The position numbers and the translations under genes were made by a program. The notes under the pieces are model-generated. The model had not been told where the DNA came from. It saw only the letters and a program-made list of their open reading frames with translations, and did no database searches. DNA of 64,000 nucleotides, taken from NCBI GenBank assembly GCA_035544215.1, contig DATKHY010000007.1, positions 1,178,001 through 1,242,000 of the forward strand. The letters are read 5' to 3'. Within the stretch, counting starts at the first letter, position 1, and each line of letters begins with the position of its first letter. Shown piece by piece: positions 6,684 through 12,652 of the stretch. This stretch comes from Candidatus Binatia bacterium. Its GTDB lineage: Bacteria; Vulcanimicrobiota; Vulcanimicrobiia; Vulcanimicrobiales; Vulcanimicrobiaceae.

Positions 6684-6865
6684 GTCGGCGCCCATCCACG
6701 ACCGCAATGAGCGCGTCCCGTTACTCTGCTGAACTTTTATCGTCCGTCACGGAGACTCCCAAGACGAAAGATTCGCATCGTGGCGTATCTCTGCCGGCGG
6801 TGGGCCAAGCCGGCCGAGCACGTGCAGCGACCAGCCAATAGTCTTAGGCCGAACCAGCGAAGGTG

Positions 6866-8852: not shown

Positions 8853-10220
8853 TTAAGGTTTCCAGACCGGGAGCAGCGCGAAGCCGGCTTTTTTCGTGGC
8901 ATCGTAATAGTAGGTGTAAGGCTTGCCCATCAGCTCCACGGAAAAAGCCGCTATTTGCACCGTGCCGCGGTTGTCCAACACGAGCGGCGTGAGGTGTTGC
9001 GGCGGGCCATACTTGCGCCCCATCGCAGCAAAATCGCCGCCGAACTCTGCGGCCATTTCACGGCCTTTCAACGCGCGCTGTAGCCACGCGAGCGCCTGTG
9101 ACTGCATTGCTGACGAAGGTTTCGGTGATTTCGCGGGCGTTGGGGTTGCTGCACCATTTTCCGGAATGTAGAGCGCAGCGATTGCGCGGATCAACTGCGG
9201 CACTGCCGTAAAGCCGCCGTTGCAGAGCACGGTGATCGACATGCGGTCGTCGGGAAGAATCCAGTTTTCGGCGGTACTGCCGACGTGGTTGCCGCCATGC
9301 CAGATCAGGCGATGGCCACGAAACTCCGTGACGTACTCGCCCGCGCCGTACCCAGTCGATGATCCGTTGCGGAGCGTGCCGGGAGTTGTCATGATACGCC
9401 ACATCGCAGCGGAAACGACGCGGTGGGCTAGCAGCGCCTCATCCCACGCAGCCATGTCGCGCACGTCGATCGAGATATCGCCGGAAGCGCCGAGCAAATT
9501 TCTTTTTCCGCCATTCGGATCGGGATAACCACGAATCGGTGTAGGAAAGAAGTAGCTCGTCGCCCGATCCCGCGGCAGCGTGCCGGTGCCGAGGAGCGTC
9601 CAATTGCGCAGTTGCAGCGGTTCGACGATGTACGTTTGCATAAACGTTGCGTACGGCACGCCGCCGACGCGCTCGATCAGCAGGCCGAGCAGCTCGTAGT
9701 TGGTGTTCGAGTAGTTGAATCGTGTGCCGGGCTGGAAAAGCAGGGGACGCGCCGTATCGCGCGTGATCCGCGTGGCAAGAGGCACGGTAGCATCATCGGA
9801 GCCTTTGCCGGTGTCCTGATAACCCGAAGTCATGCCGTAGAGCTGCGCGATCGTTACCTCGCGGGCGTGCGGAATCTGCGGGACGTAGCGCGAGAGAGGC
9901 GCGTGGAGGTCGATCTTCCCTTGCGTCGCGAGCAATGTTAGTGCGGCTGCGGTGAACTGTTTCATCAGTGATGCGCCGTCGTAAACCGTATTGGGTGAAG
10001 CTGGCAGCCTCGGGTCGATACTGCGGTCCCCAAAGCCCTTGGCATAAACGACCTGTCCATCGCGAGTAATCGCGATCGAGACGCTTGGCGCGATTCCCGT
10101 GCCGATGAACGCCCGGGCGTACGCGTCGATTTGAGCGCCCGGATCGGATGTTTCGGCCGCTGCGATGGGACCCGTCGAAACGAGTGCTGCCAGGGCAAGG
10201 GAAAGGGCAACAGTGCGCAT
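8853..10220 (-). CDS. Serine hydrolase, beta-lactamase family (class C-like)
   Basis: 455 aa, signal peptide at residues 1-22 (ends AAAE). The penicillin-binding-fold catalytic motifs are present: SLMK with Ser84 and Lys87, YSN in the FNYSNTNYE segment, and WHGG near residue 305 in place of the KTG box. This pattern fits the large class C/EstB/D-aminopeptidase-like serine hydrolases, which may be esterases or peptidases rather than true beta-lactamases. A C-terminal lipocalin-like domain (about 370-455, ending in FALLPVWKP) follows. It stands alone and exported. Resistance cannot be inferred. Confidence 0.85.
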   Translation of the reverse strand: MRTVALSLALAALVSTGPIAAAETSDPGAQIDAYARAFIGTGIAPSVSIAITRDGQVVYAKGFGDRSIDPRLPASPNTVYDGASLMKQFTAAALTLLATQGKIDLHAPLSRYVPQIPHAREVTIAQLYGMTSGYQDTGKGSDDATVPLATRITRDTARPLLFQPGTRFNYSNTNYELLGLLIERVGGVPYATFMQTYIVEPLQLRNWTLLGTGTLPRDRATSYFFPTPIRGYPDPNGGKRNLLGASGDISIDVRDMAAWDEALLAHRVVSAAMWRIMTTPGTLRNGSSTGYGAGEYVTEFRGHRLIWHGGNHVGSTAENWILPDDRMSITVLCNGGFTAVPQLIRAIAALYIPENGAATPTPAKSPKPSSAMQSQALAWLQRALKGREMAAEFGGDFAAMGRKYGPPQHLTPLVLDNRGTVQIAAFSVELMGKPYTYYYDATKKAGFALLPVWKP

Positions 10221-10416
10221 GAACGCAAGCGTTCGATAGTAGGCAAACGTCCCCTTGGCGTGCCTTCCTCGTGAGGCCGCCCGCGTGCCGCAGTGGTCCT
10301 CGCAGGTAAACGAAACCGGATTCCGCGCAGGAGTTGGAGGGAGTCTGAAACAGCAAATGGTCTAGTGAAAGACATGTCGCGCTGCGAAACGCGATAAGTA
10401 CAGCATAACTAAGAGG

Positions 10417-10443
10417 TGGCGGGAACGTGTAGGAATCGAATCT
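10417..10443 (+). repeat. Left copy of a 27-bp direct repeat of the selC 3' end (attL-like)
   Basis: This stretch (beginning TGGCGGGAACGTGTAGGAAT) matches the 3' end of the selenocysteine tRNA gene at 12559-12585 at 25 of 27 positions, in the same orientation. It covers the CCA end, the acceptor strand and part of the T arm, then similarity stops. That is the layout left by site-specific integration into a tRNA 3' end. There is no tRNA 5' half here, so it is not a second tRNA gene. Confidence 0.75.
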
Positions 10444-10655
10444 CTGAAGCCTCATTTCGCCTCGTAGCAAGTCGCTGAAGTTCGATGCGTTCCATGCGTA
10501 GGCGACGTCTGCGACACTGATCGCGGGCGAGGGGACGATCGTTGACGGCTTGCTCACATATACAAGCCAGAAAAACACGTGCCGCATCGTAGGCGTTCGG
10601 AAGCTTTTGTAGCGCTCGTGCAAAAGGGCAACTAGCCCGAAGGCGGATGGCGCCC

Positions 10656-10684
10656 TTGACGTTGACGGTGAGCGAGCGTATTGT
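10656..10684 (+). promoter_or_regulatory. Candidate sigma70-type promoter for the pentapeptide gene
   Basis: TTGACG at 10656-10661 and TATTGT at 10679-10684 are 17 bp apart, about 145 bp upstream of the pentapeptide-protein start and on its strand. The stretch between is AT-rich. Position and spacing fit, but this is a consensus match only. Confidence 0.45.
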
Positions 10685-10773
10685 TGAATTATGGCGTTAG
10701 GAGTTCGTCCGCGACCAATTCGCTGTCGACACCGGCACTAAAGCAAGATCCCTGACCAATAGAAAGGTACGCC

Positions 10774-10827
10774 ATGGGAGCCGCGGAGATGCTGCGTTTT
10801 CCACGTGTGGCGATTTGTTTTACTTAA
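10774..10827 (+). CDS. Possible 17-codon leader peptide
   Basis: An ATG at 10774 preceded by AGAAAGG opens a 17-residue frame (MGAAEMLRFPRVAICFT) ending in TAA at 10825-10827, three bases before the ATG of the pentapeptide gene. The close spacing would allow translational coupling. No homology is claimed; it may be chance. Confidence 0.25.
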   Translation: MGAAEMLRFPRVAICFT

Positions 10828-10829
10828 AG

Positions 10830-12311
10830 ATGATTTGGCGAATACTGCGACGGACCAAAGCGTTCATAGCACTCCCTCTGCTCGCCTTAGCCATCACAAT
10901 GCAGAGGTGTGATCACCCGCAATCATCGATACCGACGCCTTTACCAACGCCGCCTCCTCAGGAACAGCTATATGGTTTGCACGGATCACTCGAGGTCAGT
11001 GGTCACTGTCACTATTACAAACCCTGGAAGCCCCGCCCGATGGACCTCTATCGGGAGCTCTCTGAAAACCTCGATTGGGCGGTAGCACACCATTATGCCC
11101 TAAAAGACAGCGTCTCTAGCGTTAGGATAGGTAAAAGCACCTTCGAGTTACGATATCCTTCGAGGCGTGGACCTAGAATCGAACATCCCCGACCAGCAAT
11201 GTTGTGCCATGCCGATCTTGCGGGAGTAGGAATCGAAGGCGCGGTTCTTCCGGGCGCAATGCTTCCCGGTTCCAATCTGAGCGGGGCATACATCGTCGGA
11301 GATCTAGATAGCGCTGTCCTTCAAGATGTTCATCTTTCCAAAGCGACGCTTCTCGGCTCCTTTATAAATACGGACTTCTCCAATGCCGACCTAACTGGAG
11401 CAGTTCTGAACGGGGCTAACCTTAGTAGGACTAGGCTAGAGGGGACTCATTTGCAAGGAGCTGACCTAAATGGGACTGACTTCGATCATGCGGACTTGGG
11501 TGAGGCGAATCTCGACGGGACGAATCTTATTTCTGCAAACCTGGCTAACACATCACTGTTGAACGCTAGTTTGTCGAACGCCGAACTCGCTGGAACCGAT
11601 TTGACAAACGCTCTTTACGAACCCGTTTTGAATGCCCCTAATTCCGAAGTCTTTAATATTAAGGGGCTAGGTACGCTCAAGTCTGACGGCAATGTGAGCG
11701 GCATGGTTCGATTACGGATACTGCTGTCAGCAGCTGGTCTACAAGACAGCGTGCGGGCCATTAGCTCGTCAATCGAACGTGGCAAGACAAGCGGCGACTT
11801 TTTTCTCAACCCATCAATAATGTCGGTCAGCTCCGGAATTTTGAGGACTGTGGCGTTCGATCTCCCCACGTCGTATGGGCTGTACCCTGAGCGCGCACTG
11901 ATACTGATTGTAGTATTTGGAAGCCTTCTTGTTCCGATATACTTGAGGCAGATATTCATAGAGCCAAATACCGGTGAGCGCACTGCGGGAATCTACAAAG
12001 TTATGCCAGCAAACCAGCCATCACATGATGAGGGAGCCTCAAGATCAGGGGGCGGCACCAACGCGGTAAGGCTCGTATCTGCTAATGGTTGGCGAGCCTT
12101 TGGTTGGGCTTCGTACTTCTCGTTGTTGTCCTCTGTCAACATCGGCTTTGAGCAGCTCACACCCGGAGACTGGATTCGCCGTCTCCAGCCGACGGAATTC
12201 ACGCTCCTACCTCTTGGGTGGGTTCGCGTTGTGTCCGGAGCACAGTCGCTCCTGAGTCTCTATCTCCTCGCTATGTGGGCCCTGACCCGCTTCGGAAATC
12301 TCTTCCAATAG
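10830..12311 (+). CDS. Pentapeptide-repeat membrane protein with C-terminal pore-like region
   Basis: 493 aa from the ATG at 10830; a TTG at 10815 is an alternative start. A hydrophobic N-terminal helix (about residues 8-25) is followed by a Pro-rich linker. About residues 120-270 hold some 25 A(D/N)LxG pentapeptides (ADLTG, ANLSR, ADLNG, ANLDG and so on), which form a right-handed beta helix. After a linker come a membrane helix (LILIVVFGSLLVPIYL), a segment FSLLSSVNIGFEQLTPGDW and a final helix. That end resembles the two-helix ion-channel domain found behind pentapeptides in other bacteria, but the TxGYG selectivity filter is absent. Codons are clearly AT-richer than in neighbouring genes, which supports recent transfer with the selC island. 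Function unknown. Confidence 0.75.
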   Translation: MIWRILRRTKAFIALPLLALAITMQRCDHPQSSIPTPLPTPPPQEQLYGLHGSLEVSGHCHYYKPWKPRPMDLYRELSENLDWAVAHHYALKDSVSSVRIGKSTFELRYPSRRGPRIEHPRPAMLCHADLAGVGIEGAVLPGAMLPGSNLSGAYIVGDLDSAVLQDVHLSKATLLGSFINTDFSNADLTGAVLNGANLSRTRLEGTHLQGADLNGTDFDHADLGEANLDGTNLISANLANTSLLNASLSNAELAGTDLTNALYEPVLNAPNSEVFNIKGLGTLKSDGNVSGMVRLRILLSAAGLQDSVRAISSSIERGKTSGDFFLNPSIMSVSSGILRTVAFDLPTSYGLYPERALILIVVFGSLLVPIYLRQIFIEPNTGERTAGIYKVMPANQPSHDEGASRSGGGTNAVRLVSANGWRAFGWASYFSLLSSVNIGFEQLTPGDWIRRLQPTEFTLLPLGWVRVVSGAQSLLSLYLLAMWALTRFGNLFQ

Positions 12312-12558
12312 TATGAGGAGACTAAGGCTCCCACGCGCTCGTTGCGGTAGGTCAGCTTTCCCGGTGCGCCTTTAGGGGTGTACCTAGAACCTAGGCCGCG
12401 CGATCGTCGCGGCGTCCGCGCTGACCGCTCAGTGAGACGGCCGGCGGAGCGACTTCGTGAGCTTGGGATACACTTGGGATACTTGGCCGCATCGCTCAGC
12501 GCGAGCGACACGTTGCTTTCGGCGCTACTTCAAGCGAAAACCTCGATAAAATAAAGCT
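12312..12558. other. Non-coding right part of the selC island
   Basis: No gene is supported between the pentapeptide gene and the tRNA end. The only notable content is the short tandem repeat at 12462-12482. Confidence 0.4.
12462..12482 (+). repeat. Short tandem repeat CTTGGGATAC x2 beside the att-like site
   Basis: CTTGGGATAC occurs at 12462-12471 and again at 12473-12482, followed by a partial CTTGG. It lies inside the island about 80 bp from the tRNA end, where arm-type integrase sites often lie. The sequence shows only the repeat; a recombination role is inference. Confidence 0.4.
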
Positions 12559-12585
12559 TGGCGGGAGCGTGTAGGAATCGAACCT
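12559..12585 (+). repeat. Right copy of the 27-bp direct repeat, inside selC (attR-like)
   Basis: This is the 3' end of the tRNA-Sec gene (CCA, acceptor strand, part of the T arm). The copy at 10417-10443 differs at two positions. The two enclose about 2.1 kb with the pentapeptide gene. The intact tRNA remains on this side, as after integration into a tRNA gene. Confidence 0.75.
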
Positions 12586-12652
12586 ACCAGTCGCCTTGCG
12601 ACGACCTCAGCGATTTTGAAGACCGTGCGAGCCACCAGACCCGTACGCTCCC
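12559..12652 (-). tRNA. selC: tRNA-Sec (anticodon UCA)
   Basis: 94 nt on the minus strand including an encoded CCA (12559-12561). The acceptor stem is 8 bp (GGGAGCGT with ACGCTCCC), longer than in ordinary tRNAs, with discriminator G. The anticodon loop is CUUCAAA with the UCA anticodon complementary to TGA at 12617-12619. The variable arm is long, a 6-bp stem capped by a GCAA tetraloop, and the T arm GTAGG/CCTAC is perfect. All this is diagnostic for selenocysteine tRNA. It lies about 64 bp downstream of the CADD-like gene on the same strand and may be cotranscribed. The partners selB and selA are at 31734 and 45782. Confidence 0.95.

Follow-up and report, generated by a model that had tools for sequence, protein, structure and literature searches.

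A 2.1-kb Integrase-Less Island, Probably of the Cis-Mobilizable Type, at the 3′ End of the Selenocysteine tRNA Gene in Candidatus Eremiobacterota

The window analyzed here is a stretch of 64,000 nucleotides from a genome that belongs to the group Candidatus Eremiobacterota. It contains an intact gene for the selenocysteine tRNA (selC), a displaced copy of the 3′ end of this gene and, between the two, a short segment with a gene for a pentapeptide-repeat protein. A first-pass annotation had described this segment as a small genomic island that was integrated at selC. The features of the locus are listed below; related genomes are designated by G numbers, and the present genome is G000.

6704–6796, plus strand: possible integrase relic of a second element, with a KTKxSxRxVS motif (51 bp at 84%)
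10352–10416, minus strand: end of the second element; this flank shows homology to the integrase-side end found for the element in G002, G015, and G012 (BLAST, shuffle test)
10417–10443, minus strand: displaced lone core with the AGATTCG variant; it marks the far boundary of the island, where the second element joins (repeat comparison)
10444–12558, no strand: integrase-less island with a GC content of 0.538 (composition; no integrase)
10815–12311, plus strand: cargo gene for a pentapeptide-repeat protein (Pfam PF00805, E 3e-25)
12462–12482, minus strand: two copies of the 10-bp direct repeat GTATCCCAAG in the selC-proximal part of the island, possibly arm-type sites for an integrase
12559–12585, minus strand: attachment core within the 3′ end of selC, AGGTTCG variant (repeat comparison)
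12559–12652, minus strand: selC (tRNA-Sec), intact integration target, regenerated (ARAGORN; Rfam RF01852, 70.5 bits)

The two cores form a direct repeat in the same orientation, with 25 of 27 nucleotides identical (93%) and two differences. When up to three mismatches are allowed, the core occurs only twice in the whole 3.23-Mb genome, and the third-ranking match within the window has 8 mismatches. The chance of finding a repeat this good within 10 kb was estimated to be about 2e-8 with a simple base model. The repeat of the selC 3′ end that had been noted in the first-pass annotation is real and constitutes a unique pair. The segment is flanked by a direct repeat of a tRNA 3′ end, and the tRNA gene itself is intact.

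The island is bounded by these cores, is 2115 bp (2.1 kb) in length, and carries one sizeable gene at the end of selC. The GC content of 0.538 was compared with that of 2115-bp windows, for which the mean is 0.650 with a standard deviation of 0.035 (z of −3.2); only 1 of 310 windows was found to be lower. The GC content at third codon positions is 0.54 for the pentapeptide gene versus 0.64–0.93 for nine neighboring genes. The pentapeptide gene had been called AT-richer, and the proposed check of GC and codon bias is favorable to that description. No integrase or recognizable remnant of one was found between the repeats by inspection of open reading frames, by tblastn, or by Pfam searches, in agreement with the original description. 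The repeat GTATCCCAAG is located approximately 80 bp away from selC and may represent a pair of arm-type sites; similar repeats accompany the core in G004, G011, and G016, but 17 of 1277 background windows contain such repeats as well. No homologues of the island's own ends were found in the family.

The likelier start of the cargo gene is the ATG at 10830. Membership of the product in the pentapeptide-repeat family is clear, with a Pfam Pentapeptide score of 87.8 bits at a cut-off of 20.2, and the gene assignment of the first-pass annotation stands. From hydropathy, the protein consists of a hydrophobic N-terminal helix, the pentapeptide region, and two C-terminal hydrophobic helices that are connected by a conserved loop, YFSLLSSVNIGFEQxTPGxW. 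Searches of the available libraries gave no family match for the C-terminal domain. Across 148 further genomes of the phylum, no relative of the domain was detected, nor was one found in plasmids, phages, viral contigs, or GTDB contigs; the contig scans relied on short peptide patterns, which distant relatives can escape. The only relative found is encoded in the same genome at C3:292105–293571 and is 58% identical over the C-terminal domain. A gyrase-protection function of the Qnr/MfpA type was rejected, as the scores are 27–29 bits versus curated cut-offs of 240–360. PADLOC returned no match for the protein as a defense component. The AlphaFold model, with a mean pLDDT of 38.7, is too poor for a fold search, and no relative of the C-terminal region was found in the PDB. 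The C-terminal loop is reminiscent of the pore loop in two-helix channels, except that the GYG motif is missing. In comparison with the two-helix potassium channels of the Ion_trans_2 family, NIGFEQ replaces GYG, there is no Pfam match, and two hydrophobic helices only are present; profile searches gave no support to the channel idea. We suggest, with low confidence, that this gene encodes a pore or a sensor in the membrane.

The relative of the cargo gene is also located in an integrase-less segment that is bounded by tRNA gene copies. The gene for tRNA-Val(GAC) is at C3:299776–299847, and exact copies of its 3′ part (45–46 bp) are found 4430 and 7907 bp downstream. The relative sits between the two outer copies. 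The whole region (G000:C3:291869–299847; L063, 8869–16847) is made up of two tandem integrase-less segments that share their ends and carry different cargo. The likeness of the ends is 85% over 87 bp and 77% over 109 bp, and the genes differ. The CCA sequence is present on the outermost copy and in the tRNA-Val genes of relatives, and it is lacking in the resident tRNA-Val gene. This distribution is expected if the element's copy replaced the end of the tRNA gene.

A census of such segments was made by searching for copies of tRNA 3′ ends in stretches of approximately 10–17 kb beside the tRNA genes. The initial rule required 22 nt with no more than 3 mismatches; the island at tRNA-Glu(CTC), whose far core has no CCA, escaped this rule and was recovered through the arm motif. 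Six tRNA-bounded segments were found in the genome, five without an integrase and one with a broken integrase. The integrase-less segments are located at selC, tRNA-Val (two), tRNA-Ala(CGC), and tRNA-Glu(TTC). Neither the segment at tRNA-Ala(CGC), with an exact repeat of 46 bp at +5314, nor that at tRNA-Glu(TTC), with an exact repeat of 25 bp at +7703, contains a tyrosine integrase. The 5.3-kb tRNA-Ala(CGC) segment (L189, 132–5446) carries genes that resemble those for a TetR regulator and a short-chain dehydrogenase. In the 4.8-kb segment at tRNA-Glu(CTC), the integrase gene is frameshifted. The far ends of the two tRNA-Glu islands and of a selC island in G041, a member of another genus, align over approximately 150 bp with an invariant TCTAACATTTTCTAACGGA. 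Three islands, one with an integrase and two without, thus have one end type in common, although they occupy three different tRNA genes in two genera. The three islands are found at L196, 240–5051 (Glu(CTC)), L187, 5032–12735 (Glu(TTC)), and L075, 4917–10700 (G041 selC). The G041 island encodes an HTH protein, a C5-methyltransferase, Vsr, and a UvrD-like helicase, and it has no integrase.

The selC locus was compared among relatives. Ten other genomes of the genus contain a full-score selC (89–100% identical), and G007 has it twice. The gene typA is mostly located 5′ of selC in the genus, and the DNA past the 3′ end varies almost everywhere; the content at this site is thus variable or absent in relatives. 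An integrase gene, missing from 10444–12558, adjoins selC in three other genomes. A tyrosine integrase of 387 amino acids (Pfam PF00589) is found 84–86 bp past selC in G002 and G015, and in G075, from another genus, an integrase lies 57 bp past selC with a displaced core 10 kb further. In G004, an integrase that follows selC is cut by the end of the contig. The search for relatives with an integrase, which the first-pass annotation had recommended, was therefore successful. Contigs of the relatives frequently stop at the 3′ end of selC or no more than approximately 230 bp from it (G004, G005, G007, and G011). In G007, two contigs carry identical selC genes with different downstream DNA, which may reflect strain-level variation or a duplicated site.

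A pattern search revealed lone selC 3′ ends, with no tRNA gene, in G005, G012, G016 (two), and G017, and one each was found in G075 and G041. The selC genes examined have GGTTCG, whereas GATTCG is found at most lone copies (those of G000, G005, G012, G017, and G075 and one of the two in G016). The AGATTCG variant was apparently brought in by the element. An A at the lone cores is expected if the attachment site of the element has an A and the crossover occurs 3′ of it, and the repeated occurrence of AGATTCG argues against independent decay, which would not repeat one change. Alternatively, the lone copies may have inherited the variant from a single old element and would then not record repeated insertions. 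G001 and G017 share the DNA after the core (83% over 215 bp), with an intact selC in the former and a lone core in the latter, and we consider them to be an empty-versus-filled pair for the hotspot. The check for an empty site that had been proposed yields this pair for the hotspot in general, and no relative was found to be empty with the exact left flank of the island. The case that had been named as one that would contradict integration, namely the same gene and both repeats at this place in all relatives, does not apply, since the gene is absent from all the other genomes that were searched in the genus, the family, and the phylum, as judged by the C-terminal half. These comparisons show that the 3′ flank of selC is an integration hotspot in the relatives. 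The 26-nt core is also found more than once in assemblies that are labeled Sporomusaceae or Selenomonadales (DLGF01000012.1, JAHDOI, and JAHDPL), and these assemblies may therefore harbor selC islands as well.

Displacements were also observed on the other side of the gene. The displaced 5′ halves of selC are 38 nt long and end in the anticodon loop. In G073, G069, G040, G091, and G067, they precede an intact selC by 1.3–16 kb, and lone 5′ halves are present in G001 (twice), G012, G024, and G010. In G067, the 16 kb between the 5′ half and selC contain an integrase and genes that resemble those for type I restriction, and the end of an integrase gene lies 103 bp before selC in G001. From the displaced 5′ halves, selC seems to be hit from the 5′ side too, by elements that supply the 5′ half.

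The DNA beyond the lone core of the present island belongs to a second element. A BLAST match to G012 spans the lone core together with its outer flank (E 1e-8). From 10416 downward, the outer flank aligns with the integrase-side flanks of G002 (z of 6.3) and G015 (z of 5.3); 0 of 200 shuffles were as good, and the flanks from other genomes gave z values of about 0. The resemblance to the integrase-side end of G002 and G015 places the island in tandem with a decayed element, and the order in the window is selC, the 2.1-kb island, the shared core, and the end of the second element. Further out, 51 bp at 6747–6797 match the integrase gene of G002 and G015 in the expected orientation. This relic is called only possible because the match at the protein level is weak (E 0.09). 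A gene of the beta-lactamase family (8853–10220) lies between the relic and the island. Its counterpart in G004, with a protein that is 86% identical, is on the opposite side of selC, which indicates that the flank has been rearranged; a search at E 1e-60 returned the gene from none of the remaining 16 genomes of the genus.

The interpretation of the locus as the footprint of integration at a tRNA site is supported by these results, with the addition that the island is not solitary, since a second element adjoins it. With a probability of about 0.8, we propose that the segment is an integrase-less island similar to a cis-mobilizable element (CIME) at the 3′ end of selC. The recombination event is one that we infer by comparison with the relatives. 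A tyrosine recombinase would have acted on an attachment site formed by the last 24–27 bp of selC, with the crossover in the identical part of the core, 3′ of the A. Integration would rebuild selC and leave the element-borne AGATTCG copy as the far boundary. The island is situated between selC and an older, decayed element of the G002/G015 integrase type, and the central core is common to both. Exit or movement would occur only with a selC-core integrase from another element, either in cis (by accretion) or in trans. As in a CIME, attachment cores are kept at both ends, integration and transfer genes are lacking (the pentapeptide gene is the only one), and the segment lies at a tRNA gene in tandem with a core-sharing element, as its outer flank is homologous to an integrase-side end. 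The differences are that the island is only 2.1 kb long with one gene and that no related conjugative element is known here.

The strongest alternative, to which we give slightly less than even odds, is that the segment was once an autonomous island, lost its integrase through a deletion, and is now a decayed and fixed remnant instead of a unit moved by a helper. Such decay is seen under way in the same genome in the frameshifted integrase at tRNA-Glu(CTC), the neighboring second element has also lost its integrase, and the definition of a CIME itself assumes the loss of integration and transfer genes. However, no integrase remnant is found inside the island, and all five of the integrase-less segments in this one genome are free of visible remnants. 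The tRNA-Val segments have their ends in common and not their genes, for which an exchange of cargo is a better fit than independent deletions. It is rather improbable that the cores bound different elements and that the DNA between them is left over from a large rearranged island, with limits that are meaningless as those of a unit. The outer flank of the lone copy does belong to an integrase-type end, and the position of the 8853–10220 gene across selC in G004 shows that the neighborhood has been rearranged, but the cargo recurs in a second tRNA-bounded segment, and so behaves as cargo, and the GC content is low throughout the segment. That no integration took place at all, and that the lone copy is a chance match or the remains of a tRNA-Sec gene that was duplicated or degenerated, can be dismissed: the copy is indeed short and differs from selC at 2 positions, but the likeness is confined to 27 nt, the same shortened 3′ end with the identical substitution reappears beside integrase-side flanks in other genomes, and a chance repeat is ruled out by genome-wide uniqueness and the very low match probability.

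The CIME-like reading of the selC island might be extended to the integrase-less tRNA segments of this genome, which would then be no dead remnants and would form a class of helper-dependent tRNA cassettes that are moved in trans by the integrases of other elements. We offer this extension as a speculation that is rather unlikely to be correct. It draws on the two-ended cores, the swapping of cargo between fixed ends, the end type that is common across tRNA genes, and the cargo families that are restricted to cassettes, among them the pentapeptide gene with its two-helix tail.

Islands bounded by tRNA gene fragments and CIMEs are already known (PMC4383910, PMC5704250), and selC is a known integration target in Escherichia coli (PMC6174562). 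The present island resembles the tRNA and tmRNA islands of Islander (PMC4383910) in that a regenerated tRNA gene and a displaced 3′ fragment form its ends, but it differs from them in having no integrase gene. With the selC islands of enterobacteria (PMC6174562), it has the same target gene and the same end in common. The host group, Candidatus Eremiobacterota, is an unrelated phylum, as the first-pass annotation had suspected from the sequence; moreover, the present island has no integrase and no virulence genes and is far smaller, and it is not a pathogenicity island of that kind. CALIN arrays and MITEs are hitchers without a recombinase of their own (PMC11389934). They are similar to the present island in carrying recombination sites without a recombinase but differ in the enzymes and sites, and the helper dependence is a proposal here. 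New in this case are the host group and the cargo family, together with the minimal form of an island with a single gene and the repeated occurrence of segments without an integrase in the same genome.

Within the sequences searched, the occurrence of the C-terminal cargo domain is limited to two integrase-less islands of one genome. The 3′ end of selC is an integration hotspot in the little-studied candidate phylum Eremiobacterota, far from the best-known cases in enterobacteria. The integrase-less islands, few in number but with clear boundaries and defined cores, provide a direct test bed for helper-dependent movement of cargo.
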